Positions 12,355-63,051 of a stretch of 64,000 nucleotides of DNA are shown piece by piece; positions within the stretch are counted from its first letter, which is position 1; each line of letters starts with the position of its first letter. The DNA comes from Streptomyces changanensis. Its GTDB lineage: Bacteria; Actinomycetota; Actinomycetes; Streptomycetales; Streptomycetaceae. A program made the position numbers and the translations under genes. The notes under the pieces were generated by a model. That model saw only the letters and a list, made by a program, of their open reading frames with translations. It was not told where the DNA came from and ran no database searches. The DNA is taken from contig NZ_CP102332.1 of the NCBI RefSeq assembly GCF_024600715.1, positions 6,014,001-6,078,000 on the forward strand. The letters are read 5' to 3'.

Positions 12355-12383
12355 GAAGTACTTCCTTCCGTTCAGGTGGATGA

Positions 12384-43841: not shown

Positions 43842-43955
43842 ATCGACGGAGTCTCATCGTGCCTTTCCGCTCTGCCGGCCGCGCTTCCGGGTGTGGCGGG
43901 GCGGAAGCGCCGGCCCGTAGGTCACACCGCTTGCCGCAGGCTAAACTTCCGCCAC

Positions 43956-45323
43956 ATGACCAGCTCGGATACAGCCGCTCGATTCCTCGAGCATCCATAT
44001 GTCTTGGACCTTTTCGCCGGTCCGGGCGGTCTCGACGTGGCCGCGCACGTGCTCGACGTGCCCTCGCTGGGCATCGAGTGGGACAAGGACGCCTGTGAGA
44101 CGCGCTACGCGGCCGGTCTCCCCACGTGGCACGCGGACGTCAGCGCGGTGCGTCGGGAGAGGTTCCACGAACTGCCCGGCGGGCTGAACGTACTGGCCGG
44201 CGGTCCGCCGTGCCAGACGTACTCGGTGGCGGGCAGTGGCGCGGGGCGCCAAGCCCTCGACGAGGTCAAGAAACTCATCCGCGCCCTGGTGAACGGTGCC
44301 GGCGAGGCAGAGGTCGACGAGCAGCTGGAGAAGCTGGGCAGCGACCCCAGGACCGCCCTGGTCCTGGAACCCCTCCGTTACGCGATCAAGGCCCTCGGGT
44401 GCCCGAACCGGGAGGGACGCCCCTTCGACGTGATCGTCTTGGAGCAGGTGCCCGCGGTCAAGGCTCTCTGGGACGTGTACAGGGAGGCCCTGCAGATCGG
44501 GCTGCCCCGTGCGAGCGGGGCGCGGGTGCGCTACAAGGTCGCCGACGTCAAGACGCTGCCCACCGAGGCATACGGCGTTCCCCAGACCCGCCGTCGTACG
44601 ATCCTGATCGCGCGGCTCGAGGAGCACGGCACTCCTGCGCTGCCCCGCCGCACCCACCACGTCTACAACCCGCACAAGCCGCAGCAGGGTGGCCCCGAGG
44701 ACGTGAAAGCCGTGGCGCAGGCCGTCCAGGCCGCACTGCCCATGGAGGGAGCCGAGGCCCCGCCCAGGCCCTGGGTCTCCATGGGGGAGGTGCTCGCGGC
44801 AACGGAGCGGAGGCCCGACGGCAGGAAGCCGCCGTTCGAGATCGTGTCGAACTACGGCAGTGGCGGTGATCCGAAGAAGCGCGGCGTGCGCACGAGCACA
44901 CAGCCTTCCTTCACCGTGACGGGAAAGGTCTCCCGTAACGCCGTCCGGCACCCGGACGGTACCCCACACACGCCGGACCGCATGACCATCCCCGAGGCCG
45001 GCATCCTCCAGACCTTCCCGCCCAACTACCCATGGTCGGGAGGGGACAAGTCGCAGCAGGTGGGCAATGCCGTGCCCCCGCTGTTCGGGATGCACGTGCT
45101 CGCGGCGGCGCTGGCGCTGCCGCTCCCGCCGGAGGAGAAGCTGCGGGAGGACTGGCCCAATGCCGCCGACGAGGAGCGCGCCACCCTCCGCAAGGAGGGC
45201 TGCGGCGCTCCGGACGGTTGTGGACCCAACTGCCCGAGGCCGGAGGGTCAGTCCCTTCCCGCGCCGTCCTCCGTCTCCTCGCGTCCCCGGACCGGCGCGT
45301 CCGCGAAGAGGTCGGCGAAGTAG
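43956..45323 (+). CDS. DNA (cytosine-5) methyltransferase
   Basis: This is a 455-residue protein. Motif I is VLDLFAGPGGLDVAA, motif IV LAGGPPCQTYSVAGSG with the catalytic Cys, motif VI VIVLEQVPAV (EQV where ENV is usual), motif VIII VPQTRRRTILIA, and motif X SQQVGNAVPP. The target recognition region lies between VIII and X (about residues 230-330). It pairs with vsr and may protect host DNA from the nuclease activities of the island, in the role that DrmMII has in class 2 DISARM. The C-terminus has a cysteine-rich tail (CGAPDGCGPNCPRP). Its last 76 bases overlap the convergent DUF6339 gene. Confidence 0.9.
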   Translation: MTSSDTAARFLEHPYVLDLFAGPGGLDVAAHVLDVPSLGIEWDKDACETRYAAGLPTWHADVSAVRRERFHELPGGLNVLAGGPPCQTYSVAGSGAGRQALDEVKKLIRALVNGAGEAEVDEQLEKLGSDPRTALVLEPLRYAIKALGCPNREGRPFDVIVLEQVPAVKALWDVYREALQIGLPRASGARVRYKVADVKTLPTEAYGVPQTRRRTILIARLEEHGTPALPRRTHHVYNPHKPQQGGPEDVKAVAQAVQAALPMEGAEAPPRPWVSMGEVLAATERRPDGRKPPFEIVSNYGSGGDPKKRGVRTSTQPSFTVTGKVSRNAVRHPDGTPHTPDRMTIPEAGILQTFPPNYPWSGGDKSQQVGNAVPPLFGMHVLAAALALPLPPEEKLREDWPNAADEERATLRKEGCGAPDGCGPNCPRPEGQSLPAPSSVSSRPRTGASAKRSAK

Positions 45324-46153
45324 GCGACAAGGGTGTCCACGGAGGCTTCCGGTGCCGGTTCCTCGTCGGGGCCGGTCGGCAGCGCGGTCCGTGACACCTG
45401 ACGGGCGGTCTCGCCCTCGTCGATCCACTCGAGCAGTCGGCGGGAGTCCCGGTCCGTGTCGGGGGCGATCACGTCGTACATCAGCGTCGCGGCGGACGCG
45501 TTGACCGCTCCGGCCAGGGCGTTCGCCTCACGTCCGCCGGTGATCACTCCTTTCGTGACCAGTCGGACGATCGCCTGGGCGGTCGGGCGGTGGTTGATCA
45601 CGGACATGCGCAGGGCGGTGTTGAGGATGTCCTGGTTGCCGCACGCCGTGACGACGGGGCCGTAGTCCGAGCCGTCACGGAAGAGTTCGGCCGCCCACCA
45701 GAGACGGGCGAAGGCCTGCTTGTGGTACGGCCCACGGAAACGCTCGGTCGCCACCCTGGCGACCGTCCCGTCCTTCGGGGGATCGGGGAGGTGCCGCCAG
45801 ATCACGTAGTCCGGGGCGACGCCGAGGGCGAGGTGGTTCCACAGGCCGGGGTCGGCCGCCTCGCGGCGGGTGAGCCGCAGGGCCGCGTGGAGACGGGGGG
45901 CGAGCCAGGCGTCGGCCTGGGTGACCTTGAGGTCTTCGTGCCGGCAGTACGCCATGGCGTCCTCGGCCAGGTCCCGGACGGGCAGCAGATCACCGCGGCG
46001 GTCGGTGTGCGAGAGCGGTTCGGTGACCTGGTTGAGCCTGATGCTCGGCACGTCCTCGCGGCCGGTCAGCAGCCCTTCGCTGAGGAACCCCACCGCCTCG
46101 GCGTTGGGCAGCAGCGCGAGGCGCTCCGGGAGGTGATCGGGCCGGCCGGTCAT
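45248..46153 (-). CDS. DUF6339-like protein
   Basis: The 301-residue protein starts at ATG 46153, overlapping the upstream stop. I recognise the DUF6339 type from the segment AWLAPRLHAALRLTRREAAD, WNHLALGVAPDYVIWRHL and the later ARLWWAAELFRDGSDY. The sequence is mostly helical, without known catalytic residues or membrane segments. It is the last gene of a three-gene minus-strand module led by the GHKL ATPase at 47151, and it runs into the methyltransferase gene. Its repeated company with defence helicases suggests a structural or sensing part, which is inference. Confidence 0.6.
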   Translation of the reverse strand: MTGRPDHLPERLALLPNAEAVGFLSEGLLTGREDVPSIRLNQVTEPLSHTDRRGDLLPVRDLAEDAMAYCRHEDLKVTQADAWLAPRLHAALRLTRREAADPGLWNHLALGVAPDYVIWRHLPDPPKDGTVARVATERFRGPYHKQAFARLWWAAELFRDGSDYGPVVTACGNQDILNTALRMSVINHRPTAQAIVRLVTKGVITGGREANALAGAVNASAATLMYDVIAPDTDRDSRRLLEWIDEGETARQVSRTALPTGPDEEPAPEASVDTLVAYFADLFADAPVRGREETEDGAGRD

Positions 46154-47154
46154 GCGTCGTCCCCCTGCGTGAGTCGTTCCAGGTCGCGGATGGTGGTGGA
46201 GAGCGCCCGGGGGACGCCTGCGCGTCGTGAGGCGGCGAAGTGGATGCGGGACTGCAGCTCCCCCCATCCGGTAGCGGAGGCTCCGGTGCGGGCCGCGTGG
46301 ACCTCGCGCAGGGCGTCCTCCGGCTCGCGGTCCGGGTACATGTCGGGGAGCATCTCCCGCAGCACGTCGCCTTGCCACCCGTGCGGGAAGAGCGGCGTGC
46401 CGTCGTCCTCGATCTCCAGGTCGCCGACGGCGGAGTGGAAGACGGCGGTCCAGACCTCGGAGCACATCTGGGCGAGAAGGACCTCCCGGACGGTCTTCTC
46501 CGCGCCGTTCCCGCCGTCCGCGCCGATCAGGTCGCCCAACCCGTCGAAGTCGGTGTTGACGCGCACGACGGGGATCCGCCCGGTCGTGTCGACCACCCAG
46601 GGGGCTTCCTTGAAGCGCTGGAGCCGGCCCGCCCCGGAGGCGAACCCGACCATCTTCACATCGAGTTCGCGGGCGAGAGAGGGGGTCGCCTCGATGACGT
46701 CCACGAACCACTCCGCGTCGGCGGTCGCGATCACGCGCCCGGCGACACCGTCCACGGTGGCCACCACGTGGAGGGCGAGGGAGGCGCGGTCGAGGAGGTC
46801 GCATCGGTGGACGTGCAGCTCGGCGGTACGTGTGCGGCCGTCGTCGGAGACGGGGGACAGCTCCACGGCGGTGCGGGTATTGGTGGCGCGCTCGGTGAGC
46901 ACGGCGACCACTTCGACGTCCTGCCAGGGCCCTGTGGGATCCATCGCCTTGGCGGGGAGGACGGCGGAGAGGTGGAGGCGGGCCTGCGTCCAGTCGGGGC
47001 GGTCCTCGTCCGGTCCGAGGGCCACGACGCGCTCGACGGTGGAGACGTACTTGCTCTCCACATCCTCCCAGGGCTCGCCCTCGACCTTGAGCTGTGCCTT
47101 GTCCACGCGCCAGGAGACGTTGCCGGTGAGCCGCCGGTAGGGGTAGACCTTCAC
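46150..47154 (-). CDS. Unknown protein of the GHKL/DUF6339 defence module
   Basis: This is a 334-residue protein from GTG 47154. It begins VKVYPYRRLTGNVSWRVDKA and appears to be beta-rich in the first half (WQDVEVVAVLTERATNTRTA, AELHVHRCDLLDRASLALHV) and helical in the second (VREVLLAQMCSEVWTAVFHS). I do not recognise a family. It overlaps both neighbours by 4 bases, so it must be made with the GHKL protein and the DUF6339 protein in fixed ratio, as subunits of one complex would be. Confidence 0.55.
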   Translation of the reverse strand: MKVYPYRRLTGNVSWRVDKAQLKVEGEPWEDVESKYVSTVERVVALGPDEDRPDWTQARLHLSAVLPAKAMDPTGPWQDVEVVAVLTERATNTRTAVELSPVSDDGRTRTAELHVHRCDLLDRASLALHVVATVDGVAGRVIATADAEWFVDVIEATPSLARELDVKMVGFASGAGRLQRFKEAPWVVDTTGRIPVVRVNTDFDGLGDLIGADGGNGAEKTVREVLLAQMCSEVWTAVFHSAVGDLEIEDDGTPLFPHGWQGDVLREMLPDMYPDREPEDALREVHAARTGASATGWGELQSRIHFAASRRAGVPRALSTTIRDLERLTQGDDA

Positions 47155-49298
47155 GCCTGCTCCCCCTTCCCGGTGCGGATTTCGACGACCAGCCCGGTGA
47201 GTTGGGCCCGGACCGGGTGGCGCGACACGTCGGTGACGCCCCGGAAGACGGCCTTGCGGCTGCCAGGGGTGAGATGCAGGACCCCGTCGACGACCTCGCA
47301 GCCGCTGACGGCGACAAGGTCCTTCCAGGGCGCGGGAGGACGGGGGCCGGAGCGCACGTCGAACTTGGCGACCGGCGTGACCGGTCGGTCCGTGTCGACG
47401 CCCGGCGACACCCGGAGGTCGACGGTGACCGACCAGGCTCCGGTCTCGTCGACCAGCGCGTCCACGTTGTCCAGCTCGGGCAGGGCCGCGGACCCGGAGG
47501 GGCGCGCCTTCTTCTGCGTACCGCCGCCCACCTTGAGCCGGCCTGCGATCTTGGCCTCGCCGCCGTTGCGGCGCTTGGCCCGGGGCACGGCGACCAGGTC
47601 GCGGACCGTGCTGTTGGCGGCCGTGGTCAGGGCGGCGATGCGCCGGTGCGCGGAGGGGGAGTAACTGAGGCGGAGCTCCTCGGTCTGGCCCCACTTGTTG
47701 TGCTCGGGAGGCTCGGACGCGCGGAGGAACTCCTCCGCGGCCTCGGCGCCCGGTGCGTCCTGACCCGCGGCCCGGCCGGTGAGGAGGATGGCCTGGAAAG
47801 GGTTGGTGCCGATCGGCACGTTGGTGACGGCGCTGTCCTTGACCGTCATGCGGTTGCCCCGCATGGAGACGAGCCGGTTGGGGCGGCCGTCGGCGTCCTC
47901 CGCGTGGGTGACCAGGAGCACCGCCTCGTGGGGCACCCCGCCGCGCACCTGGCCGCCGCGCAGGGGCACGTTGAGCGCCACGGTGGCGCGTGCGACCTGT
48001 CCGGGGGCGGTCAGACGGTCGACGGTGTCGCCCTCGAGGAAGGCGCGCAGGGCGCGGGTGCGGGAGGGCTGGGTGAGTGAGGGGTCCACGTGTTCCTCGG
48101 CGATGAGGACCTCGCCGTTGCGGTATGTGCGGACGGACGCCTCCAGGTACGGCTTGTGGTCGCCGCCGCCGGTCATCGCGGCCCAGAAGTTGCGGCCGAG
48201 CGCGTCGACGAGTCGGGCGTGCATCCGGTGGACGGAGTCGTCGTCCTGGGTGGTGTCCTCCTCGTCGAACGTGCCGGTGACCGGGGCCAGGCTGGCGACG
48301 TCATGGGCGCCGACGATGAGGAAGGAGGTGCCGGGTGCCCCACTCTCGCGGGTGAGGTGGAGGTTGTCGACGGTCTCCTCGTCGGCCCACCACGAGCGGG
48401 CCACGTCGGCGGTCCTGGCGTCCGGGTCGGGACGCCCGAACCAGGCCGGGCCCGCGAACTCCCGACCACCGACCTCGCGCCAAGGGAGGTCGAGCCGGCC
48501 GATCAGACGGCGCTCGGTACGGCCCTCGTGGGGTTCGGAAAGGGTGGAGTTGATCAGTACGAGGCCGAGCCGGCTGGTGGCCCAGAGCGTGGCCTTGCCC
48601 AGACCGTAGGAGCCACCCGCCCCCGGGTCCTTCTTGTGACTGTCGAGTTGCCGGCGGACGACTGCGGCGAAGAGCCCGTTGTCGTAGTCGCCGCCGGTCA
48701 GACCTGTGGCGTTGTAATCGTCGACGCGGAGCAATACCAGGCGGTCGTGCTGGTACATGTCGCGCAGCCCGGCCGCGATCGTGCGGGAGACCTTGCCCTG
48801 CCGGCCGTCGTCGGCGGTCAGGGCCTCGTAGTGGGGGAGGAGTTGCTCCCAGTCGATGGCCTCCCGGAAGCGGGCGAGGGCCTCACCGGTCAGCTCGTGG
48901 AGGATGTAGCGGATCCGGACAGGCTCGGCCGGATCGAGGCGCGCGTCGAGACTGTTCTGGGTGGTCTCGCGGGCGAGGACCGAGACGTCGGCCTCGAAGG
49001 CGAAGGCGGCGGCGTTGCCGTACTCGCGCCCGCCATCGGCGTGGGCCGGCCGGTGGTACCAGGAGACGGGCAAACCCACTTGGGCATCGGCGCTGCGGGT
49101 GTGGATGGTCTCCAGGTCGGTCTCCAGCACCTCCGCGATACGCCGGATCGTCTCGTCCCGGGGGACCGAACGGCCCACGATCCACGCCGATACGGCAGCC
49201 CGGGTCATGCCCAGTTCCTCCGCCAGATCGGTCTGGCTCTTCCTGGCGTTCCTGAGCTGGCGCGCCAACCAGGGGCCGAAGTCCTCAGCCGCCTCCAC
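47151..49298 (-). CDS. XRE helix-turn-helix protein fused to a GHKL ATPase
   Basis: This is a 715-residue protein, read from GTG 49298 after GGAAG; a TTG at 49385 would extend it. Residues about 10-60 form an XRE domain (LARQLRNARKSQTDLAEELG followed by MTRAAVSAWIVGRSVPRDE). A large GHKL/MORC-like ATPase follows: LARETTQNSLDARLDPAEPV (N box), VLLRVDDYNATGLTGGDY (G1 box) and GSYGLGKATLWATSRLGLVL (G2 box). The C-terminal 300 residues are unassigned. It may sense and repress its own divergent region while acting as an ATP-switch in defence. It leads a three-gene coupled run. Confidence 0.7.
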   Translation of the reverse strand: MEAAEDFGPWLARQLRNARKSQTDLAEELGMTRAAVSAWIVGRSVPRDETIRRIAEVLETDLETIHTRSADAQVGLPVSWYHRPAHADGGREYGNAAAFAFEADVSVLARETTQNSLDARLDPAEPVRIRYILHELTGEALARFREAIDWEQLLPHYEALTADDGRQGKVSRTIAAGLRDMYQHDRLVLLRVDDYNATGLTGGDYDNGLFAAVVRRQLDSHKKDPGAGGSYGLGKATLWATSRLGLVLINSTLSEPHEGRTERRLIGRLDLPWREVGGREFAGPAWFGRPDPDARTADVARSWWADEETVDNLHLTRESGAPGTSFLIVGAHDVASLAPVTGTFDEEDTTQDDDSVHRMHARLVDALGRNFWAAMTGGGDHKPYLEASVRTYRNGEVLIAEEHVDPSLTQPSRTRALRAFLEGDTVDRLTAPGQVARATVALNVPLRGGQVRGGVPHEAVLLVTHAEDADGRPNRLVSMRGNRMTVKDSAVTNVPIGTNPFQAILLTGRAAGQDAPGAEAAEEFLRASEPPEHNKWGQTEELRLSYSPSAHRRIAALTTAANSTVRDLVAVPRAKRRNGGEAKIAGRLKVGGGTQKKARPSGSAALPELDNVDALVDETGAWSVTVDLRVSPGVDTDRPVTPVAKFDVRSGPRPPAPWKDLVAVSGCEVVDGVLHLTPGSRKAVFRGVTDVSRHPVRAQLTGLVVEIRTGKGEQA

Positions 49299-49986
49299 GT
49301 CCCACCCGCTTCCACTCGCCTGCCTCGTCCATGACGGTGAGCGCCACCGTACCCCACTGCTGTTGACGACGTGCTCTGTTGTCAAAAGTTCTTTGACAGC
49401 TTGGGGATCGACCGAAGTTCACTGTCAGGGCGCACAGAAGTGGAATCCGAAATTCCCCTCAGGTCGCGGGTAATTGTCCTGAACTGTCCGCCTGGGTGTG
49501 AACGGGATCGGCGGTGGAACGTCTCTTGCGTCCCGGCCGTGGCTCGTGGTTGAGTGCCACCTCGGCTGCACCCGACGCAACAACAACTGCCTTTTGCCGG
49601 GGCACAGTTGTGCGCTTTTCCCGTCTCTTTCCGGAGCCCTCGCGAGCCTGCAGGCGCTCCGTTCCCGCCCCTGCACCACCTCGCACCTCTCCCTCGCGTC
49701 ATTCCGCACAGTGAAAGCGCAGGTACCTCGGTGTTCTTGCAAGAGCCGCAGTGCGGCCACCTGCGCGACTTCGCCAGGTTGAGCGGCCGATCGCGTAACG
49801 GCCGTAAGCACGCGCCATTTTGACGATCCATCGGCTCCGAGTGGAGGCTGGCACCTTGACCGCCCGATCCGGAACCCGACCGGCTTGCCGGAGCGTCATC
49901 ACCATCACGTGCACCGTGCACCTCGTCCGAAGACAGCACCGTCCGCCCGTCCCTCCCGCCCCACCGTCCCGAAGTGGAATCCATTC
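49299..49986. promoter_or_regulatory. Divergent regulatory region of the defence island
   Basis: About 690 bases lie between the GHKL-XRE gene and the helicase operon. I see no supported gene. A low-GC patch at 49375-49450 holds a perfect inverted repeat (49381-49397). The remaining stretch may carry a long leader of the helicase operon; a TTG at 49885 opens the helicase frame earlier but without a family match. Confidence 0.5.
49381..49397. promoter_or_regulatory. Inverted repeat, candidate operator of the XRE-GHKL protein
   Basis: GTCAAA (49381-49386) and TTTGAC (49392-49397) form perfect arms around 5 bases. Each arm, read outward, also yields a TTGACA-like promoter box (TTTGACAG on the plus strand, TTTTGACAA on the minus strand), so a bound repressor would cover -35 regions of both divergent transcripts. 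Confidence 0.5.
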
Positions 49987-52900
49987 GTGGCCGACCCGCA
50001 GTCCCCCGTGATCCGCACCGTCGTCGAGCAGTCCCTCCGCGTCCTGGAGACCTACCGCATCGACCCGGGCCTGATCCCCGAGCACGCCAACGGAGAGCGC
50101 CGTATCACCCAGGGCGGGTACGGCGACCGTCAGCTCTTCGAGCTGGTCCAGAACGCCGCCGACGAGATCCGCGAAGAACCCGGCGGGCGGATCCACGTCG
50201 TGCTCACCGACACCCACCTGTACTGCGCCAACCAGGGAAATCCGGTGACCGCCGAGGGCGCGGAGACCATCCTGCGCATGAGCATGTCCCGCAAGCGCGG
50301 CGGTCAGATCGGCCGGTTCGGCGTGGGGGTCAAGTCGGTCCTGGTGGTGACCGACGCTCCCGAGTTCTTCAGCCGCAGCGGCAGTTTCGGCTTCGACCGG
50401 GCGTGGTCGTACGAGTTGATCCGGAACGTGCCCGGCGTACGCGAGCGCCACGGTGACGAATTCGACGCGCCCGTGCTGCGCATGGCCCGCGAGCTGGACA
50501 CGGCGGCCGAGCGCCTCCGGGACCCGGTGCTGGACGAGCTGTCACAGTGGGCCACCACCGTGGTCCGCCTGCCCCTGCTGCCCGGCGCCGCCGACCGGCT
50601 GGGCAAGGACATGCACGGGCACCAGGGAACGGCCAGTCACGAGTCCCGTGAGGAGTTCCCGTCCGGCTTCCACCTGTTCTCCCCGCACGTGGGCCAGGTG
50701 GTCCTGGAGGACCGCCGGCCCCGCCCGATCGCCCGCCGGGCCCTCCACGCCGCCCAGGACGGCACCCTGCGCACGATCCACGAGGAGCGCGTCGGAAAGC
50801 CGCCTGCCACCTCGCAGTGGCGGGTCTTCACGTACACGCACGAGCCGACCGAGACCGCCCGCCGCGATGCCGGCGAGCTGCACGACAGGGTGTCCATCGA
50901 CGTGGCCTGGGCCGTTCCGGCCTACCGCCCGGACGAGCGGACCGGTCTGCTCAGCGCCGCCGATGCCCGTGGCCGCGGCAGGTTCTGGTCTTTCTTCCCG
51001 ACCAAGTACGAAATGACTCTCAGCGGCGTCCTGAACGGTGCCTGGAAGACCAACGAGGACCGGCAGAACTTGCTGGACTCCTCGCCGTTCAACGTCGAGA
51101 TGATCCAGGTCGCGGCCCGCCTGGTGGTCGAGTCGCTGCCCGAACTGGCCCCCGCCGAGGATCCCGGCGCCTATCTCCCGTTGCTGCCCGGCCGCACCAA
51201 GGGCGTCGAGGTCATCAGCTGGGCCGACCGGCTGCTCACCGAGCAGATCTGGGCCGCCACCGCGGTGCGCCCGTCGCTGCCGGACCAGGACGGGATCCTG
51301 CGCACCCCCGACGCACTCAACATCCATCCCGATCTGGGCCGCGACACCACCTCGCAGAACCGCTGGCTGCGGACCTGGCACGCGTACGCCGGACGACCAC
51401 GCGACTGGGTGCACCCCTCGGTCGAGGCGACGGACCTGCGATCGGGCAAGATCCAGCACATCCTGGGCGCCGCGGGCCGGCAGCGGGCCTCAGTCGTCGA
51501 GTGGCTGGAGGCGCTGGTCTCCGACGGGTCCGCGAAGGCATCGGACGCCGCGATCCGGATCGTCGCCGACATGATCGAGTCGAACGCCCCCTGCGCCACC
51601 GAGGCCCGTGGGGCGAGGATCGTGCTCACCGAGGAACACGGCCTGGTCGCCCCGGTGGGCGGTGGTGTGGTGTACCGGCGTGCCGAGGAGGACGGCCTGC
51701 GGGAATCGCTGGTCTACGTGGACCGGGCCCTGTCCGACGATCCGTCGCTCTCCTCCGCCCTCACCACCCTCGGCATCCAGGAAGCCGACGTACGGGGGCG
51801 CTTCGTGAGCGTCCTCGACGAGGGTTTCGACGCGTACGGCCCGCAGGAGTGGAACCGGTTCTGGGAGCTGTTCCACCGGGCGGGTGCGTCCGTGGTCGGC
51901 CATGAGGTGACCAAGAGGGTGAAGGCGCCGATGGACACCCTGAAGGTGCGCACGGCGGACGGTCGTTTCCGCACCATGCGCGATTGCATGCTGCCCGGTG
52001 TCGTCGTCACCGCGCAGAGCGACCCCGGCGTCGCGGTGGACGTGCGCTTCCACTCCGACGACGTGGGCTTCCTCCGCGAGTCGGGGTTGCGCGACCGCCC
52101 CACCTCGGGCCACAGGCCCGGGGCGGAGCCCTGGTTCGAGGAGTACCGCGAGGCCGTGCACAAGGCGTACTGCCGCACGCTCGACGACCGCGCCGGCCGG
52201 CCGTCCCTCGCCCGGACCAGGCTCGAGGGTGCTCCCGTCGGCGGACCCCTGCACCTGCTGCCCCGGTTGTCGGACGAGGCCCGCGCCGCCTTTCTCCGGG
52301 CGCTCCCCGACGATGCGCTGATCGAGAACTGGACCCTGCAGATCGGCGCGCAGACCGGCACGCGCAGGACCGCCCAGTCCCCTATCCGGTGGATGCTGAC
52401 GCGGTACGGACGGGTCGCCACCTCGCAGGGTCTCAAGCCCCTCAAGGAGGCCGTGGGCCCACAACTCGACGCCTACCGCGACGTCCTCCCGGTGGCCTCC
52501 GTCAGCATCGAGAAGGCCCGCAAACTGGGACTCGCGGACAGCGTCGAGAAGGTCCGGTCCCAGCAGTGGGAGCAGCTCCTGGAGAAGCTCCAGGCGAGCG
52601 AGGACGACGTCTTCGTCGGCTCCACCTACGCCCTGTTGACGCGCTTGGGAATCGACTTCCCCGAGGACTCCCTGACCCGCTGCCGGGTCGGTGACGCCTG
52701 GGACACCCGGGAGGACGGTGAGATCGCCGTCGCCGCGAACCCGGAGGAATACCGCTCGCTGCGGGCCGAGCGGGTGCCGGCACTGCTGATGCCGGACCAG
52801 AGTTCCGCCGACCTCATGGTCGAGCAGTGGGGCATGCTGCGCCACGACGACGTCGTCAGCCGAGAGACCCGGCACGAGTCGACCGTGGAAGCGGTGCCCT

Positions 52901-54756
52901 TGTCCGAGGACTTCCCCACACTCCGCCAGAGGATGGGAACCTCCGTCGCTACGTACTCCCTGCTGCGCTGCTCCACACTGGAAGAAGTCGTCCGCACCCC
53001 GCGCGGCGCCCGGGCGAAATCCCTGGAGAGCGCCCGCCAGGGCAACGTGATCAAGGTGCTGGACTCGTTGGACCGGCTCGACATGCTCCGGGCCGTGGAC
53101 CGTGAGCTGGGCCTGCGGATGGGCGAGGCGGGGTGTCGCGCGGTACTGGACGCCCAGATCCGCCAGGAGCAGGACGAGAAGGTGCGGTCCGCGCTCAAGG
53201 CGATCCGCGAGGCCGAGGACGTGACGGCCAAGCTGGAGCTGCTGATCGGCGCGGAGGCCCTGCGCGACCGGCTTCCCGCCGGACTGATGGAAGCCGAGCG
53301 CCAAGAGCTGGACGGGCAGGCACCCACCGGGCGTCGGATCGCCCAGATGGCGTTCAACGCGCACGGCGACACCGTGCTGAAGACCCACGCCCGCGACATT
53401 CAGGAGCGCTTCCCGGGCGCTCCGTCTTCCTACACCGGAGGTTCTGCGGCGGTGTCCTTCGTGGCCGACCTCGGGCTGCCCGCCCCCTTCGCCGGCTACC
53501 GGGCCCCGACCCTCGAGCAGAGTGTGACGGTGGAGGGCCCCCGCGACTTCCCACGCCTCCACGACTACCAGGAACGACTCGCCCTCAACATCTTCGAGAT
53601 GCTCGACCGGCTGGCCCCGCAGCGCGCCATGCTGTCGCTGCCCACCGGCGCCGGCAAGACCCGTGTCACCGCTGAGGCCGTCATCCGCTGGGTCAAGCAG
53701 GCCGGCGACCTGAAGGGCCCCATCCTGTGGATCGCCCAGACCGAGGAACTGTGCGAACAGGCCGTGCAGAGCTGGCAATTCGTGTGGAGCAAGGCCGGTG
53801 CGCGGACCCGGCTGACGATCAACAGGCTCTGGACGTCGAACGAGGCGGCACCCGTGACCGACGGGCCGCAACTCGTCGTCGCGACGGACGCCAAACTCCA
53901 CGTGTGCCTGGACACCGACCGGTACGCCTGGCTGCGGGACGCCGCCCTGGTCGTGGTGGACGAGGCGCACGTGGCGACCAGCCCCCGCTACACCGACGTC
54001 CTGGGACTGCTCGGTCTCACCCAGCACCGGACCGAGCGGCACCTGCTCGGGCTCACCGCCACCCCGTTCCGCGGCCACAACGAGGAGGAGACCCACCGCC
54101 TGGTCAACCGGTTCGGCGGGCGTCGGCTGGACGAGGGCGTCTTCCCCTCGGACGACGCCTACGGGCACCTCCAGGAACTGGGTGTGCTGGCGCAGGTCGA
54201 GCACCGCGAGCTGACGGGCGGCACCATCGAGCTGTCCCGCCAGGAGCGGGAGAGCGCCGAACAATTCAGTCTGCTGTCCAAGGCCGCCGAACAGCGGCTG
54301 GCCGACGACCACGACCGCAGCCGCCGCATCGTCGCCGAGATCGCGTCCATGCCCGACGACTGGCCCGTGCTCGTGTTCGCCACGTCGGTGGAGCACGCCA
54401 AGTACCTGGCCGCCCGGCTGAAGGACCACGGCATCTCCGCCTCCTCCGTGGACTCCACCACCTCCGACAGCGACCGGCGCGCCCGTGTCCGCGACTTCCG
54501 CGACGGCCGGGTGCGGGTGCTCACCAACTACGGCGTCCTCACCCAGGGCTTCGACGCCCCCGCCACCCGCGCGGTCGTCGTCGCCCGGCCCGTGTACAGC
54601 CCCAACGTGTACCAGCAGATGATCGGACGCGGTCTGCGCGGCCCACGCAACGGCGGCAAGGACACGTGCCTGATCCTCGACGTCCGCGACAACGTCCGGA
54701 ACTTCGACACCGCCCTCGCCTTCACCAAGTTCGAGCACCTGTGGAGCACGAAGTGA
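49987..54756 (+). CDS. GHKL-ATPase/SF2 helicase fusion (sacsin-like N-terminus)
   Basis: This 1589-residue protein starts at GTG 49987; a TTG at 49885 would add 34 residues rich in His. The N-terminus has a sacsin-like GHKL site: GGYGDRQLFELVQNAADEIR (N box), YCANQGNPVTAEGAE (G1 box) and QIGRFGVGVKSVLVV (G2 box). The middle 900 residues are unassigned. The C-terminus is a full SF2 helicase: LSLPTGAGKTRVT (about 1219), VVVDEAHVATS, LLGLTATPFRG, VLTNYGVLTQGFDAPATRAV and YQQMIGRGLRGP (about 1543). It probably unwinds or translocates on DNA under ATP-switch control. Its stop overlaps the UvrD-like gene (GTGA). Confidence 0.85.
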   Translation: MADPQSPVIRTVVEQSLRVLETYRIDPGLIPEHANGERRITQGGYGDRQLFELVQNAADEIREEPGGRIHVVLTDTHLYCANQGNPVTAEGAETILRMSMSRKRGGQIGRFGVGVKSVLVVTDAPEFFSRSGSFGFDRAWSYELIRNVPGVRERHGDEFDAPVLRMARELDTAAERLRDPVLDELSQWATTVVRLPLLPGAADRLGKDMHGHQGTASHESREEFPSGFHLFSPHVGQVVLEDRRPRPIARRALHAAQDGTLRTIHEERVGKPPATSQWRVFTYTHEPTETARRDAGELHDRVSIDVAWAVPAYRPDERTGLLSAADARGRGRFWSFFPTKYEMTLSGVLNGAWKTNEDRQNLLDSSPFNVEMIQVAARLVVESLPELAPAEDPGAYLPLLPGRTKGVEVISWADRLLTEQIWAATAVRPSLPDQDGILRTPDALNIHPDLGRDTTSQNRWLRTWHAYAGRPRDWVHPSVEATDLRSGKIQHILGAAGRQRASVVEWLEALVSDGSAKASDAAIRIVADMIESNAPCATEARGARIVLTEEHGLVAPVGGGVVYRRAEEDGLRESLVYVDRALSDDPSLSSALTTLGIQEADVRGRFVSVLDEGFDAYGPQEWNRFWELFHRAGASVVGHEVTKRVKAPMDTLKVRTADGRFRTMRDCMLPGVVVTAQSDPGVAVDVRFHSDDVGFLRESGLRDRPTSGHRPGAEPWFEEYREAVHKAYCRTLDDRAGRPSLARTRLEGAPVGGPLHLLPRLSDEARAAFLRALPDDALIENWTLQIGAQTGTRRTAQSPIRWMLTRYGRVATSQGLKPLKEAVGPQLDAYRDVLPVASVSIEKARKLGLADSVEKVRSQQWEQLLEKLQASEDDVFVGSTYALLTRLGIDFPEDSLTRCRVGDAWDTREDGEIAVAANPEEYRSLRAERVPALLMPDQSSADLMVEQWGMLRHDDVVSRETRHESTVEAVPLSEDFPTLRQRMGTSVATYSLLRCSTLEEVVRTPRGARAKSLESARQGNVIKVLDSLDRLDMLRAVDRELGLRMGEAGCRAVLDAQIRQEQDEKVRSALKAIREAEDVTAKLELLIGAEALRDRLPAGLMEAERQELDGQAPTGRRIAQMAFNAHGDTVLKTHARDIQERFPGAPSSYTGGSAAVSFVADLGLPAPFAGYRAPTLEQSVTVEGPRDFPRLHDYQERLALNIFEMLDRLAPQRAMLSLPTGAGKTRVTAEAVIRWVKQAGDLKGPILWIAQTEELCEQAVQSWQFVWSKAGARTRLTINRLWTSNEAAPVTDGPQLVVATDAKLHVCLDTDRYAWLRDAALVVVDEAHVATSPRYTDVLGLLGLTQHRTERHLLGLTATPFRGHNEEETHRLVNRFGGRRLDEGVFPSDDAYGHLQELGVLAQVEHRELTGGTIELSRQERESAEQFSLLSKAAEQRLADDHDRSRRIVAEIASMPDDWPVLVFATSVEHAKYLAARLKDHGISASSVDSTTSDSDRRARVRDFRDGRVRVLTNYGVLTQGFDAPATRAVVVARPVYSPNVYQQMIGRGLRGPRNGGKDTCLILDVRDNVRNFDTALAFTKFEHLWSTK

Positions 54757-56669
54757 CCCTCCTGCCCGAGGACGGACCCCTCCTCACGCCCGAGCAGCAG
54801 GCCGTCGTGGACCAGTCATGGGACACTCGCCTGCTGGTCACGGCCGGGGCGGGCACGGGCAAGACCCACACGCTGGTACGCCGCATGGACGCGCTCGTCG
54901 GCCACACCGACCCGGACGAAGCCCTGGAGGCAGGCGAACTGCTGGTGCTCAGCTTCTCCCGGGCCGCCGTCCGCGAGCTGCGGGACCGGATCGTCCGGCA
55001 CGGCGAACACGCCCGGAGGGTCCGCGTACAGACCTTCGACTCGTGGGCCTACTCCCTGCTGGTGCAGGCGTACCCCGATGCCGACTGGTCGGTGCACTCC
55101 TTCGACGACCGCATCCGGGTGGCGACCGAAGCGATCGAGAAGGGCGCGTTGAAGAACCTGGAGTCCGGCCCGCCCGCCCACGTCATCGTCGACGAGGTAC
55201 AGGATCTGGTGGGGGCGCGTCGCGAGATGGTGGAGTCGCTGCTCGACCGGCTCCAGGACTCCTGCGGATTCACCCTGGTCGGCGACTCCGCCCAGGCCAT
55301 CTACGACTTCCAGATCAAGGACCCGGACGAATACGCCGACCGCGCCGACCTCTTCCTCCGCTGGGTACGCACCTCCTACGCCGACGACCTCGTCGAGCTG
55401 CGCCTGACGCGGAACTTCCGGGCCGTCACCCCCGAAGCCCGCACCGCGCTGCCGCTCGGCCCCGCCGTGCAGGGCATCGGCAGTGCGCGCGAGGGCGCGG
55501 ACGCCGCGGCCGAGCGACTCCACGGGGAGCTGCGCGAGCTGCTGCTCGACGTTCCCGGCCTGGGCTCGCTCACCGACTCGTTCACCCTGGACTCCCTGCG
55601 GTCGTTCCCCGGCACCTGCGCCATCCTCACCCGCGACAACCGGCAGGCCCTCCTCGTCTCCGAGCTGCTGCACACCCACGGGGTGCCGCACGCCCTGCGG
55701 CGCTCGCTCCAGGACCGGCCGGTCCCGTACTGGGTCGCCGAGCTGCTGCGCCGTACCCAGGCCACCACGCTCACCGAGGAGCGGCTGCGCGACCTGCTCG
55801 CCGGCATGCCGTCGCCCGAAGGCACCGACGCCGACCGGGTGTGGCGAGCCCTGCGGGTGGCGGCGCGCGGCAGCGGTCCGGGGACGCTCGACGTGACGCG
55901 GCTGCGCCGGCTGGTGGTGGAGCGGCGCTTCCCCGACGAGCTGGCCGACCCACAGCCGGCCCGACTGGCCGTGTCCACGGTGCACCGGGCCAAGGGCCTG
56001 GAGTTCGACCGGGTCGTACTGCTCACCCCGCCGACCATGGCCGAGCTGCGCCGCCGCAACGCCGGACTCGACGTGCCCGGCGAGACGCGCGCCCTCTACG
56101 TGGCGATGACCAGGGCCAGGGAGGACTTGTACCGCGTCGCCGCGCCCGACACCGTGACGCTGCTCAAGCACCGGCCCACCGGCCGCTGGTACCGAGGCGT
56201 CCCGAACGTGCGGCACAGGTGGCGGCGCGACGGCGTCGAGGTGCGGGCCGGCGACGTCTGCGCCCTGGAACCGGCCGGTGCCCCGGACGACGCCCCGGGC
56301 ACACAGGCGTACCTGCTGGAGCGGGTACGGCCCGGTGACGCGGTGACGTTCCGGCTGCGCGACACCCTCCCCCTGGGCCCCGAGCAGAGCCCTCGCTACG
56401 CGCTGGTGCACGGGGGACGGGAAATCGGTGACGCCTCCGACCGCTTCAGGAGCGATCTGTACTCCGTCCTGAAGGTCGGCACGGACTGGGAGATCCAGTG
56501 GCCGGAGGAGATCTCCGGTCTGCGGCTCGACTGCCTGGAAACGGTCGCGGGCAGCACCGCCGCCGGGGTCAACGCGGGCCTGGGTGACCGTGGGGTGTGG
56601 ATCGCCCCCCGCATCAGTGGAATCGGACGGTTCCGGCGGTCCGCCGGAACCGAGGAGGAGCAGGAATGA
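54753..56669 (+). CDS. UvrD/Rep-like SF1 helicase
   Basis: This is a 638-residue protein. Motif I is LLVTAGAGTGKTHTLVRRM (about residue 30), Ia LLVLSFSRAAVREL, II VIVDEVQDLVGARRE (DEVQD, about 146), III LVGDSAQAIYDF, IV LRLTRNFRAVTPE, V VSTVHRAKGLEFDRVVLL (about 407) and VI YVAMTRAREDLYRV (about 450). The C-terminal 150 residues are extra and unassigned. It is shorter than UvrD (about 720). It overlaps both neighbours by 4 bases, so it is part of the helicase operon and works in the same pathway, presumably DNA translocation or degradation of invading DNA. Confidence 0.85.
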   Translation: MTLLPEDGPLLTPEQQAVVDQSWDTRLLVTAGAGTGKTHTLVRRMDALVGHTDPDEALEAGELLVLSFSRAAVRELRDRIVRHGEHARRVRVQTFDSWAYSLLVQAYPDADWSVHSFDDRIRVATEAIEKGALKNLESGPPAHVIVDEVQDLVGARREMVESLLDRLQDSCGFTLVGDSAQAIYDFQIKDPDEYADRADLFLRWVRTSYADDLVELRLTRNFRAVTPEARTALPLGPAVQGIGSAREGADAAAERLHGELRELLLDVPGLGSLTDSFTLDSLRSFPGTCAILTRDNRQALLVSELLHTHGVPHALRRSLQDRPVPYWVAELLRRTQATTLTEERLRDLLAGMPSPEGTDADRVWRALRVAARGSGPGTLDVTRLRRLVVERRFPDELADPQPARLAVSTVHRAKGLEFDRVVLLTPPTMAELRRRNAGLDVPGETRALYVAMTRAREDLYRVAAPDTVTLLKHRPTGRWYRGVPNVRHRWRRDGVEVRAGDVCALEPAGAPDDAPGTQAYLLERVRPGDAVTFRLRDTLPLGPEQSPRYALVHGGREIGDASDRFRSDLYSVLKVGTDWEIQWPEEISGLRLDCLETVAGSTAAGVNAGLGDRGVWIAPRISGIGRFRRSAGTEEEQE

Positions 56670-59600
56670 CCATCCACGCAGGACGGCACGCAGCGCACTA
56701 CGAGGTCCGCGAGGACCTGGTGGCCCGGCTCCGCCGGGAGCTGCTGGGCCCCGACGTCGACGCCTCCGCCGAGGACCGCGCCGAGGTGCTGGACCAGGAC
56801 GCCCCGATCACGCGCTACCCCATGGGTGTGCTCTTCCCCCGCCCGGCCGATGCCGAGGCCGACCTCCGTCTCCGTGAGGACGCCGCCGAGGAGGAGGGCC
56901 TGGACGAGGAGCCGGTGAACGGGAGGGACGACCCCGAGGAATCCGCGGCGGCCGGGGAGCGTCCCAACGCCGGTGACCGGCGCCCGTCCACGGTCGGTCT
57001 GACCTTCGCCGTCGACCTCACCGAGTGCCGGGAGATCGTGGTGTCGGCGCGCGCCGCCGTGTACGAGCCGGAGGACGCCGAGGGCCGCAGGGTCCCCGCC
57101 CGCCGCAGCGAAGCCCGTACCACCTCCGACCAGCGGGAACGCTGGCGTCGGGTGGAACTGGACCTGCCGGACACCACGATCGACGTGACGTACCCGGGGC
57201 GGGGTGCCTCACGTGATCTCGTCGACGGCGCGGCCCGACTGGACGTGCACGTGCGCCGCCCGTCACCCGAGAGGGGAACGGTCACCGTCACGGTCACCCT
57301 GGTCAACATCCAGAAGGTGGGTGAGCGGGAACTCCAAGATGCCTTCGCCCTCTTCCAGACCGGTCTGACGGTCCGGGCCGCCAATGGTTCGAGCGCGTTC
57401 GTGGAGCGTCCCACCGGCCTGTCCGCCGTGGACGCCGAGCTGGAGGCCGGCCGGCTGCTCCACCGGCACGCCCCCACCTTCGCCACCGGCCACGGCTGCG
57501 CCGCGGTGTGGGACTGGACACCGCCCCCGATCGGACTCACCGAAGTGGTACGCGCGGGCGTGACGGAGGTGCGCACCGAGTTCGTGCCCACGCACGAGGT
57601 GCTGCTCACCGACTCCAACCCGGAGATCGACGATCGCGCCCTCACCATGTTGGGCCTCGCCACGGCGGCCGACACCGAGGTGATCAGCGCCCTGGAGGGC
57701 CTGGCCGCGGGATACGAACGGTGGATCGACCGGAAACGGGTCGAGGCGGCCGCGCTCGCCGGCACTCCGCACGAGAAGGCCGCGAACGTCCAGGTCGAAT
57801 CCTGCGGCGAGGCCCTGGAGCGGATCCGCGGGGGAATCGCGCTGCTGCGCGACAAGCCCGACCTGATGCGGGCCTTCCGCCTGGCCAACCGGGCAATGGC
57901 GACCCAGCGCGCGCGGAGCGCCTGGGTGAAGGGCGGCCGGGTCGGCGAGCCGGACCTTCCCGCGGCGCGCTGGCGCCCCTTCCAGATCGCCTTCGTGTTG
58001 TTGTGCCTGGCCGGGGTGGACGACCCCGAGCACCCTGACCGGGACCTGTCGGACCTGCTGTGGTTCCCCACCGGCGGCGGCAAGACCGAGGCGTACCTGG
58101 GTCTGATCGCGCTGACCACCTTCCTGCGCCGGATGCGGCTCGGGGCGGCGGGCGGCGGTGTCACCGTCCTGATGCGCTACACGCTGCGCCTGCTCACGCT
58201 CCAGCAGTTCGAACGCGCGGCGATCCTCATCTGTGCCATGGAGCGGATGCGGCGTGAGAACCCCGCCGAACTGGGTCACGAGGAGATCTCCCTCGGTATG
58301 TGGGTGGGCCGTTCCGCCACCCCGAACACCCTGGAGGTCACCGCGCGGCAGCTCCGCGCGGCCCGTGCCGGCAAGGTGCTCCAGAAGGAGAACCCGGTCC
58401 AGCTCCATGCCTGCCCCTGGTGCGGGACCGCCCTCGACGCCCACCACTACGCGGTCGACGAGGAAGCCGTCCGGATGGACGTGCGCTGCCCGGGCAAGGA
58501 CTGCGCGTTCACCGACGGACTGCCCGTCCACCTGGTCGACGAGACCGTGTACCGTGCCCGGCCCACGCTCGTCATCGCCACTGTCGACAAGTTCGCCTCG
58601 ATGCCATGGCGCCCGCAGACCGCCGCACTCTTCAACCGCGACCGGCAGGGTTCCACCCCGCCGCCGGAGCTGATCGTGCAGGACGAGCTGCACCTGATCT
58701 CCGGCCCGCTGGGCACCCTGACCGGCCTGTACGAGACGGCCGTGGACGTGCTCGCCGACCGCCCGAAGGTGATCGCCTCGACGGCGACCATCCGTCGCGC
58801 CGCCGATCAGGGCAAGGCCCTGTTCTCCCGTGACGTACGGCAGTTCCCGCCCGCCGGACTGGACTCCCGCGACTCCTGGTTCGCCGTGGAGACACCGGCC
58901 CGCGACAAGGCGTCCCGCCGGTACGTGGGCCTGCTCGCCCCCGGCACCAGCCAGTCCACCCTGCTGGTCCGCGCTTACGCCACTCTGCTCCACCAGGCGA
59001 TGCGCGCCGACACCACGCAGGAGGTCCGCGACGCGTACTGGACACTCGTCGGCTACTTCAACAGTCTGCGTCTGCTGTCCGCGGCCGAACTGCAGGTCCA
59101 CGACGACGTCGTGGCCCACCTGGAGTACCTGGCCGACCGTGACGCCTGCGAGCCCCGCTCGGTGGGAAGCTGTTCCGAGCTGACCAGCCGGGTCGACGCC
59201 AGCGACATCCCCGCCCGCCTGAAGCAGATCGAGCGGCGGCTGCCGAGCGGTGACGTGGTGGACGTGCTCCTGGCCACCAACATGATCGCTGTGGGTGTGG
59301 ACGTCGACCGGCTCGGCCTGATGGCCGTCATGGGGCAGCCGCAGACCACCGCCGAATACATCCAGGCCACCAGCCGCGTGGGCCGTGCCCACCCCGGCCT
59401 GGTCGCGGTGATGCTCAACGCCGGCCGCTCCCGGGATCGTTCCCACTACGAGAATTTCCAGCACTTCCATTCCGCCCTCTACCGCGAGGTCGAGTCCACC
59501 TCGGTCACCCCTTTCTCGGCCCGCGCGCGTGACCGCGGCCTGCACGCGGTGATCGTCGCCCTGGCCCGCATCCTGATCCCCGCCGCCCGTGCCGACGAGG

Positions 59601-59929
59601 CCGCGGGGAACATCGACCTCTTCCTGGACGAGCTGAGGGCGGAGATCCGCCCGCGAATCCTCGAACGGGTGCGCAACGTCTCCCCCGAGGCGACCGCGGT
59701 GAAGGAGGTGTCTCGGGTGGCCGCCGCCTTCGACGAGTTCGTCGACTGGTGGTATGAGGAGGCCGAGGCGCACGGAGGCCTGTACTACGAGCCGAAGCGC
59801 GGACGCCGCGTCCCCTCGCTGCTCAAGCCCTACAACGACGCCATGGAGGACGTCGAAGCGTGGGAGACCCTGTGGTCCCTCCGCGACGTCGACGCCGAGT
59901 CCGCCCTGTTCATGGAGGCATCCCGATGA
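56666..59929 (+). CDS. drmA: DrmA-like DISARM helicase
   Basis: This is a 1087-residue protein behind GAGGAGGAG. The first 450 residues are DrmA-specific, including an acidic stretch near residue 80. Helicase motif I is DLLWFPTGGGKTEAYLGLIA (about 468), a zinc ribbon CPWCGTALDAHHY...CPGKDC lies near 590-615, motif II is IVQDELHLISGPLG (DELH, about 672), motif III region VIASTATIRRA, then LLATNMIAVGVDVDRLGLMA and YIQATSRVGRAHPGL (motif VI, about 903). The order and the DELH box are typical of DISARM DrmA. It overlaps the UvrD-like and DrmB-like genes by 4 bases each. Confidence 0.85.
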   Translation: MTIHAGRHAAHYEVREDLVARLRRELLGPDVDASAEDRAEVLDQDAPITRYPMGVLFPRPADAEADLRLREDAAEEEGLDEEPVNGRDDPEESAAAGERPNAGDRRPSTVGLTFAVDLTECREIVVSARAAVYEPEDAEGRRVPARRSEARTTSDQRERWRRVELDLPDTTIDVTYPGRGASRDLVDGAARLDVHVRRPSPERGTVTVTVTLVNIQKVGERELQDAFALFQTGLTVRAANGSSAFVERPTGLSAVDAELEAGRLLHRHAPTFATGHGCAAVWDWTPPPIGLTEVVRAGVTEVRTEFVPTHEVLLTDSNPEIDDRALTMLGLATAADTEVISALEGLAAGYERWIDRKRVEAAALAGTPHEKAANVQVESCGEALERIRGGIALLRDKPDLMRAFRLANRAMATQRARSAWVKGGRVGEPDLPAARWRPFQIAFVLLCLAGVDDPEHPDRDLSDLLWFPTGGGKTEAYLGLIALTTFLRRMRLGAAGGGVTVLMRYTLRLLTLQQFERAAILICAMERMRRENPAELGHEEISLGMWVGRSATPNTLEVTARQLRAARAGKVLQKENPVQLHACPWCGTALDAHHYAVDEEAVRMDVRCPGKDCAFTDGLPVHLVDETVYRARPTLVIATVDKFASMPWRPQTAALFNRDRQGSTPPPELIVQDELHLISGPLGTLTGLYETAVDVLADRPKVIASTATIRRAADQGKALFSRDVRQFPPAGLDSRDSWFAVETPARDKASRRYVGLLAPGTSQSTLLVRAYATLLHQAMRADTTQEVRDAYWTLVGYFNSLRLLSAAELQVHDDVVAHLEYLADRDACEPRSVGSCSELTSRVDASDIPARLKQIERRLPSGDVVDVLLATNMIAVGVDVDRLGLMAVMGQPQTTAEYIQATSRVGRAHPGLVAVMLNAGRSRDRSHYENFQHFHSALYREVESTSVTPFSARARDRGLHAVIVALARILIPAARADEAAGNIDLFLDELRAEIRPRILERVRNVSPEATAVKEVSRVAAAFDEFVDWWYEEAEAHGGLYYEPKRGRRVPSLLKPYNDAMEDVEAWETLWSLRDVDAESALFMEASR

Positions 59930-61791
59930 CCCCGCCCCCGCCCCGCCGCCGGCGCGGCACCGACGGCTCCGCCGCACCGGCCCGCAGCCTGCCCCGCCGT
60001 GGCGCCGTCCGCCGAGCCCAGGCCATCACCACATACGGGGTGGGCGCGCTGATCGCCGTGGAGCAGGAGTCGTTCATCGTCTCGGGCATCGACGACGCCG
60101 ACGGGCAGTGGCGCCGCGACGAGGCCCCGGTGATCCACGAGCCGCGCCTCGCCCGTGTACTGGGCGTGAACCGGTTCCGCCTCCCGCCCGCCTCCGGGGA
60201 CGACAGCCGCGACGGCATCCGCGTACGCCGCTTCCCCCTGTGGCACCACTGCCCCGGCTGCCACGCTCTCGACCACGTGAGGAAGTTCAACTCGCCGCCC
60301 GGACGGAACGAGTGCGCCGAGTGCTCCGAGGCGCTGGTGCCGTCCCGTTTCGTCGTGGCGTGCGAGGACGGGCACATCGCCGACTTCCCGTACTGGAAGT
60401 GGCTGCACCGGGGGCGACGTGGCGACGGCGAAGCCGGGTTCTGCGGCGGCCGGATGAGCCTGCGCTCCTCGGGACGGACCTCCTCGCTCCGATCGGTGGT
60501 CCTGTCCTGCTCCTGCGGTGTGCCGGAAGTATCCATGGAGGGGTCCTTCCGGCGCGGCGCCCTCAAGGACCTGAACATCCGGTGCGAGGGCAGGCGGCCC
60601 TGGCTGAAGGACGCCCCCCAGCTTCTCTGCTCGCAGCCTCCCCGCACCCTCCAGCGCGGTTCTTCCTCGGTGTGGCAGCCGGTGCTCCGCTCGGCGCTGT
60701 CCATCCCGCCGTGGAGCGACACACGGGTGCACGCCCTGGACCGGCACTGGGACAAGCTCCGCACTTGCTCCACCCTCGCCGAGATCGAGATCCACCTGAA
60801 GTACATCTTCGACGGGGCCCCGTCACCGGTGAGTCCCGAGCAGGTCAGGGAACTGCTCGCCGCGATGGAGGCCGAGGACCCCACCGGAGAGGACGGCCCG
60901 GACCTCGACCAGGAGCAGCGCTACCGGGCCCTGCGCGACCTGGAGTACGAGCGGCTGTGCACGGGCAACCCGGAGGACTCCGGCCACCACACCGAGCAGT
61001 TCGTCTGCGAGCCGCCGAGCGGCGACGGAATACTGCCGGCTGGCCTGGGCCTCCTCCCCCCGATGTTGGTGAAGAAGCTGCGCGAGGTCCGCGCGTTGAA
61101 GGCATTCACACGGGTCATCGACCCCGAGACCTCCTCCGAGGGGCACGAGGCGGAGCTGTCCCTCGCTCCCACCGGCTGGCTGCCCGCCATGGAGGTCCAT
61201 GGGGAAGGCGTCTTCCTCCGGCTCGACGAGGAGAGGATCGACGCCTGGGCCGAGCTGCCCGCCGTCGCCGCCCGCGTGGAACGCATCCGCCACCGACACC
61301 AGCGGGTCCTCGCCGAGCGGGCCTCCGACCCGGCCCGGGTACCTCCCTCTCCCGCCACCCCTCGCATGGCCCTGCTGCACACCCTCGCCCACGTCATGAT
61401 CAACGAGTGGAGCCTGGACTCCGGTTATCCGGCCGCCTCGCTCCGCGAGCGGATCTACGCGGGTGACGAGATGGCCGGCGTGTTGATCTACACGGCGACC
61501 AGTGACTCCGCCGGGAGCCTCGGCGGCCTGGTGGCCCAGGGCGAGACCGACCGCCTCGCCCAAGCCGTGCGCTCGGCCGTCCACCGCGCCGAGTGGTGCT
61601 CTGCCGACCCGCTGTGCATCGAGACCGAGACGTCCGGTGCGGGCGGCACCAACCTGGCCGCCTGCCACGCCTGCGTGATGCTCCCGGAGACCAGCTGCGA
61701 GCACAACAACGGGCTCCTCGACCGTGCCCTCCTCGTCGGCACCCCGGAGGACCCGTCGATCGGCTTCTTCTCCCACCTGCTCACCCGGTGA
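59926..61791 (+). CDS. drmB: DrmB-like DUF1998 protein
   Basis: This is a 621-residue protein. The N-terminus RRAQAITTYGVGALIAVEQE followed by VSGIDDADGQW is characteristic of DrmB. A zinc ribbon follows (CPGCHALDHVRKF...CAECSEALVPSRFV, about residues 109-145) with CEDGHIADFPYWKWLH. The C-terminal DUF1998 region has LLHTLAHVMINEWSLDSGYP, GVLIYTATSDSAGSLGGLVA and CHACVMLPETSCEHNNGLLD. DrmB forms a complex with DrmA that recognises and blocks incoming DNA in DISARM. It is the last gene of the operon; a terminator follows. No DrmC (PLD nuclease) gene is seen. Confidence 0.85.
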   Translation: MTPPPPRRRRGTDGSAAPARSLPRRGAVRRAQAITTYGVGALIAVEQESFIVSGIDDADGQWRRDEAPVIHEPRLARVLGVNRFRLPPASGDDSRDGIRVRRFPLWHHCPGCHALDHVRKFNSPPGRNECAECSEALVPSRFVVACEDGHIADFPYWKWLHRGRRGDGEAGFCGGRMSLRSSGRTSSLRSVVLSCSCGVPEVSMEGSFRRGALKDLNIRCEGRRPWLKDAPQLLCSQPPRTLQRGSSSVWQPVLRSALSIPPWSDTRVHALDRHWDKLRTCSTLAEIEIHLKYIFDGAPSPVSPEQVRELLAAMEAEDPTGEDGPDLDQEQRYRALRDLEYERLCTGNPEDSGHHTEQFVCEPPSGDGILPAGLGLLPPMLVKKLREVRALKAFTRVIDPETSSEGHEAELSLAPTGWLPAMEVHGEGVFLRLDEERIDAWAELPAVAARVERIRHRHQRVLAERASDPARVPPSPATPRMALLHTLAHVMINEWSLDSGYPAASLRERIYAGDEMAGVLIYTATSDSAGSLGGLVAQGETDRLAQAVRSAVHRAEWCSADPLCIETETSGAGGTNLAACHACVMLPETSCEHNNGLLDRALLVGTPEDPSIGFFSHLLTR

Positions 61792-61810
61792 ACACCGGGA
61801 GGTGACGTAG

Positions 61811-61840
61811 GGGTGGCAGGCGGGCAACGGCCTGCCACCC
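61811..61840. terminator. Terminator between the DrmB-like gene and the convergent methyltransferase homologue
   Basis: Perfect 10-base GC-rich arms (61811-61820 and 61831-61840) with a 10-base loop lie 19 bases after the drmB stop. It can serve both convergent transcripts. Confidence 0.75.
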
Positions 61841-61894
61841 TCCCCGGTCGGTCGGGCGGCGCGGGCGTCGGCCCGGCGGGGCGGGCATCGACGC

Positions 61895-62881: not shown

Positions 62882-63051
62882 GATCACCGTTCGTGCTCAT
62901 CGGGACACGCGACCCGGGGTGGCTGAGGCTCCCGTCCACCGCTGACGTCGAGCCGTTGCCGACGGTCGAGGCGGTCGGAGTCCTGGGCGTCGGTGATCGT
63001 ATCGTCTGACGCGGGTCGCTGACGAGCCGTCATCCTTGATGAGCTCGGGCG

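Follow-up and report, generated by a model that had tools for sequence, protein, structure and literature searches.

A DISARM-related four-gene operon without a recognized DrmC in Streptomyces changanensis and other actinobacteria

What kind of system combines the DISARM proteins DrmA and DrmB with two additional helicases and no evident DrmC? The question is raised by a four-gene operon in a 64,000-nt stretch of NZ_CP102332.1 from Streptomyces changanensis (genome of 6.9 Mb in 2 contigs). This stretch is referred to here as the window and supplies all coordinates unless another locus is named. The operon is a DISARM-related variant that lies outside DISARM proper, since DrmC was searched for at the locus and not found. 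The actinobacterial cluster conserved around it is probably an anti-virus system.

Conservation of the four-gene core

As summarized in Table 1, the core encodes a GHKL ATPase fused to a superfamily 2 (SF2) helicase (protein 1), a superfamily 1 (SF1) helicase (protein 2), DrmA and DrmB, the last two exceeding the cut-offs of their DISARM families. The genes overlap by four bases at each junction (GTGA at 54753-54756, ATGA at 56666-56669 and 59926-59929), and an earlier sequence-only reading had described them correctly, on the forward strand with motifs intact. In addition, a 200-residue open reading frame (ORF) at 49382-49984 was considered as a further gene; it has matches in 0/80 of the related loci described below and is probably not a gene.

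Table 1. Features of the conserved unit in the window (aa, amino acids; HTH, helix-turn-helix).
Feature	Position	Strand	Evidence
Vsr-type nickase, 139 aa	43422..43841	+	TIGR00632 117 bits (cut-off 98); PDB 1cw0 Vsr E 8e-14
M1, C5-cytosine methylase with PCQ motif	43953..45323	+	PF00145
C, DUF6339 protein, 301 aa, PDC-M33C-like	45248..46153	-	PF19866 38.8 bits; PDC-M33C 22 bits
B, 334 aa	46150..47154	-	tblastn match in 70/80 loci
A, HTH + GHKL ATPase, PDC-M33A-like, 744-aa frame	47151..49385	-	HTH_3; PDC-M33A 77 bits
Divergent intergenic region	49386..49986	.	12-base direct repeat at both ends (49437 and 49971)
Protein 1, sacsin-type GHKL + middle without assigned family + RadD-like SF2 helicase, 1589 aa	49987..54756	+	Family scans and conserved motifs; N-terminus NF047352 68 bits (cut-off 50), PADLOC TmtA 134 bits; C-terminus ResIII, Helicase_C, RadD model NF053632 110 bits (below its 720 cut-off)
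Protein 2, UvrD/GajB-like SF1 helicase, 638 aa	54753..56669	+	Family scans and conserved motifs; UvrD; PADLOC GajB 88 bits
Protein 3, DrmA, 1087 aa	56666..59929	+	NF038325 1010 bits (cut-off 950); PDB 7s9v_A DrmA E 6e-174
Protein 4, DrmB with DUF1998/MZB zinc domain, 621 aa	59926..61791	+	NF038324 470 bits (cut-off 240); PDB 7s9v_B E 1e-77
M2, C5-methylase fold without catalytic Cys (PC to PR), 330 aa	61895..62887	-	PF00145 124 bits

Conservation was assessed in 80 loci retained from 121 relatives found for protein 1, most of them from Streptomyces; tblastn matches below 50% length or 100 bits were excluded when building hidden Markov models. The four core genes occur in order in 80/80 loci, some of them being broken in L064 and L066. 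DrmA from these loci and the window forms 66 clusters at 90% identity and about 31 at 80%. Because the order is kept in all of these loci, across some 31 clusters, it is not a product of chance. Stop contexts compatible with 4-base overlaps are found at the three junctions in 80/80, 77/80 and 73/80 loci. The ATPase, helicase and zinc motifs of the core are conserved in nearly all of the 80-81 aligned rows, including the GHKL and SF2 motifs of protein 1 (81 rows) and motifs I, II, III, V and VI of protein 2 (80 rows). In two loci adjacent genes read as one ORF, either by fusion or through a sequencing indel: UvrD with DrmA (L048:14775-19913) and probably B with C (L046:5218-6957).

DrmA phylogeny and the nuclease question

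A search for the DrmA family matched 29 of 396 phylum genomes, of which three (that of S. changanensis, L135 and L138) have the GHKL-UvrD arrangement. The first tree contained 45 rows: the window, 15 of the 80 protein-1 loci and 29 DrmA loci from 28 other genomes, with L152 omitted as it has no DrmA. A more careful second tree, which is unrooted, retained 38 rows after seven distant or long rows were omitted; 15 of its 18 GHKL rows had been selected via protein 1. One side of this tree (support 100/100) is made up of ten loci whose DrmC carries the HKD motif and two more where none was found. On the other side are a seven-row branch with a NERD-helicase and/or short UvrD (97/93) and the GHKL-UvrD clade of 18 rows (99/99), to which L137, with UvrD and a NERD-helicase, is sister (100/99). 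As these two groups lie opposite the DrmC-type loci, the tree of short DrmA proteins has a DrmC-less half that is rich in SF1 helicases. The operon is thereby set apart from DrmC-type DISARM, in agreement with the proposal that it is a distinct, DISARM-like and DrmC-less unit with three helicases. "DrmC" serves as a default label for loci and is backed by the motif in L123-L126, L128, L129, L131-L134, L148, L150 and L151. Separately, a NERD-type SF1 helicase lies directly 5' of DrmA-DrmB in L139, L142, L144, L146 and L191, which form a second DrmC-less DISARM-like branch.

Given that DrmA and DrmB are DISARM family members, the locus could be an ordinary DISARM whose DrmC has been lost or is hidden in another protein. 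We regard this as highly improbable. No HKD motif occurs in the six frames of the window, and among the 80 loci one was found in L064 alone; the supported GHKL clade yielded no other. The L064 motif belongs to a DrmD-DrmC remnant, a 351-aa ORF (L064:5173-6228, forward strand) in which the N-terminal part of DrmD runs into the C-terminal part of DrmC, and which looks like what a class 1 DISARM left behind on deletion. The motif test can miss some cases, as a slightly looser HKD motif was found in 10 of the 12 DrmC-side loci L123-L134. The single DrmC profile model matched nothing anywhere, positive controls included, and the negative result for DrmC applies at the scope of the locus. A DrmC homologue within the middle of protein 1, which the earlier reading named as grounds for abandoning its proposal, was likewise not seen: this region has no HKD motif, no conserved [DE]xK pair and no PADLOC match. 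For its predicted fold (pLDDT 86), the 44 PDB matches listed are weak, with none that convinces and no nuclease among them.

The same reading supposed that the GHKL-helicase and UvrD-like proteins replace the missing nuclease and accessory parts. No conserved [DE]xK pair was found in the protein-1 middle, the UvrD tail, protein C or residues 300-744 of protein A, and protein B has an acid-x-Gln pair only. Vsr, with its conserved Asp and His residues, is the only recognizable nuclease, and because no nuclease signature was found in the two helicases, catalytic replacement of DrmC by either is unsupported. The reading's description of the locus as DrmC-less is supported but incomplete: it mentions neither Vsr nor the two C5-methylase genes, and the methylase component of DISARM is present, since a C5-methylase of active type flanks the core in 77/80 loci.

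The methylation block and its exchangeable arm

The conserved unit extends well beyond the core, spanning about 43422-62887. By strict counts, Vsr is present in 68/80 loci, a complete A-B-C trio in 70/80 and the dead methylase M2 in 62/80, with all of these and the active methylase together in 58/80. M2 accompanies A-B-C closely, occurring in 62/70 loci with the trio versus 0/10 without the full set; the active C5-methylase is still present in 8 of these ten. The trio reads away from the core, with gene C convergent with M1 and overlapping gene B by ATGA. Proteins A and C match the M33A and M33C components of the PADLOC candidate PDC-M33, and B has no match to that candidate, to any family in the family and PADLOC scans or to the PDB.

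Sequence motifs support the assignments of the flanking proteins. The Asp and two His residues of Vsr are 91-97% conserved (68 rows), and the PCQ cysteine of M1 is present in 86% of 59 rows, the remainder being partly cut or shifted. M2 has kept the S-adenosylmethionine-binding motif and has Pro-Arg at the position of the catalytic Pro-Cys. Pro-Arg recurs in 63/68 rows from the loci and in 119/121 rows comprising the window and the best 120 of 6273 homologues, and the motif-IV Cys occurs in 0/121 of the latter rows. Because of this recurrence, M2 is a member of a standing subfamily of predicted dead C5-methylases and not a local mutant. The genome encodes four C5-methylases, M1 and M2 included. 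When compared with the DISARM methylases DrmMI and DrmMII, the best PADLOC matches of M1 and M2 were MTase_II and DruM, with DrmMII weaker.

In protein A, the N-box, G1 and G2 motifs are near-invariant (68 rows). Its true start is probably some codons inside the 744-aa frame; of the 11 matches to A in genus genomes, 5 span one or two TGA codons, presumed to lie 5' of that start. The tree of A contains 30 rows, of which L073 is very long; L005 provided no usable row, and the GH/GHZ1 labels depend on flank length. One homologue (L140:3531-7127, reverse strand) has sigma-70 regions 2, 3 and 4 fused ahead of the HTH-GHKL part. The idea that the divergent region holds a conserved operator was rejected, the repeat core being absent from 59/71 intergenic regions. 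GCCGGC-rich words there exceed a mononucleotide shuffle, which is a weak control for GC-rich DNA.

The distribution of the unit bears on a further explanation, namely that Vsr, GHKL, UvrD and YprA-type helicase proteins form a genome-maintenance cluster repairing 5-methylcytosine (5mC) deamination or crosslinks. Vsr and a C5-methylase are the classical very-short-patch pair, and protein 1 has a RadD-like SF2 domain. YprA/MrfA is also described as a repair helicase in the available part of PMC12458937. This explanation nevertheless seems unlikely to us. DrmA exceeds the DISARM equivalog cut-off, and the spread is patchy: full-length protein 1 occurs in 8/61 genus genomes, that of S. changanensis included, and DrmA-like genes (E 1e-40) in 22/61. 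Beside the same methylation block the effector arm is exchanged, an MZA-like cassette standing in place of the DISARM-like arm. The neighbours are also defence-like, as a Lamassu-like trio adjoins the system at 39159-42755 on the reverse strand (LmuB-like, 641 aa; LmuC-like, 193 aa; Cap4/LmuA- and HamA-like, 367 aa).

Block and core do not always occur together: 3/11 A-bearing genus genomes have the block without DrmA, and the ten loci noted above have the core without the full A-B-C set. Gene A is nevertheless adjacent in 8/8 genus genomes with protein 1, and a DUF4420 gene was not found in 15/18 genomes whose locus has both arms. Elsewhere in the window, an ORF at 11173-12609 (reverse strand) matches mad2 of MADS in PADLOC (58.6 bits, residues 132-244). 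Carriage on known plasmids or phages was not borne out: none of the records spans 80% of protein 1, partial matches number 3 in plasmids and 181 in phages, and the best ten of the 181 all fall within the helicase part.

Relation to known systems and proposed function

With class 1 and 2 DISARM, the locus shares DrmA and DrmB and a nearby DNA methylase. It differs in having no DrmC found, two extra helicases (one GHKL-fused), Vsr and a dead C5-methylase, and in its separate DrmA clade. For DrmD, PADLOC gave only 17.5 bits, against the SF2 portion of protein 1; DrmE was not among the matches listed for the scanned proteins, no dedicated search being made. As for MZA, MzaB and DUF4420 (MzaD) were not among the PADLOC matches listed for scanned window proteins, the rest of the genome not being searched. 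PF10593 had no match in the genome at E 1e-10. Another related system likewise associates a C5-methylase with a repair endonuclease, and the three unnamed genes of its type I may correspond to A-B-C.

The ARMADA, BRIGADE and TALON systems, in the sections of PMC12458937 available, likewise have a YprA-family helicase, and ARMADA II also has a GajB/UvrD-like one. In contrast, their DUF1998 part is usually helicase-fused, while DrmA and DrmB are separate genes here. ARMADA additionally has BrxHII- and PglX-like genes; the methylases here are C5-type, and BrxH gave only a 22.9-bit match to protein 1. The same sections place DISARM-like classes on another branch, many of them uncharacterised, and the term GHKL is absent from the paper's main text. 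MORC/paraMORC restriction-modification operons, as far as the accessible part of PMC2292703 describes them, also join GHKL ATPases with C5-methylases, Vsr and SF2 helicases, and GHKL proteins of unassigned subtype (A, protein 1), M1, Vsr and SF2 share one neighbourhood here. However, no restriction-endonuclease-fold nuclease besides Vsr is recognized here, and DrmA and DrmB are unmentioned in that part.

With moderate confidence, we propose a DISARM-related restriction system that is guided by methylation and has the four core genes as its effector arm, the whole unit lying at about 43.4-62.9 kb of the window. Self DNA would be marked with 5mC by M1, with M2 perhaps serving as its non-catalytic partner or as a reader, and A may use its HTH-GHKL module to sense or repress at the divergent promoter. 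In DISARM, DrmAB loads onto unmarked incoming DNA, and DrmAB may do likewise here. Opening of the DNA would then fall to the GHKL ATPase together with the two motors, RadD-like and UvrD-like, and Vsr would nick it, following the parallel drawn in Iyer 2008 with MutL, which works alongside Vsr and alongside UvrD. Host nucleases would complete the breakdown.

The locus represents a DISARM-like branch that appears to do without DrmC, occurs in 8/61 genus genomes and in six named actinobacterial families of the second tree, and has no description in the papers found. The dead C5-methylase subfamily raises the question of what role a cysteine-less methylase has in defence. Furthermore, the methylation block also occurs joined to another system suspected of a role in defence, and one such block beside different effector arms amounts to a natural swap experiment.
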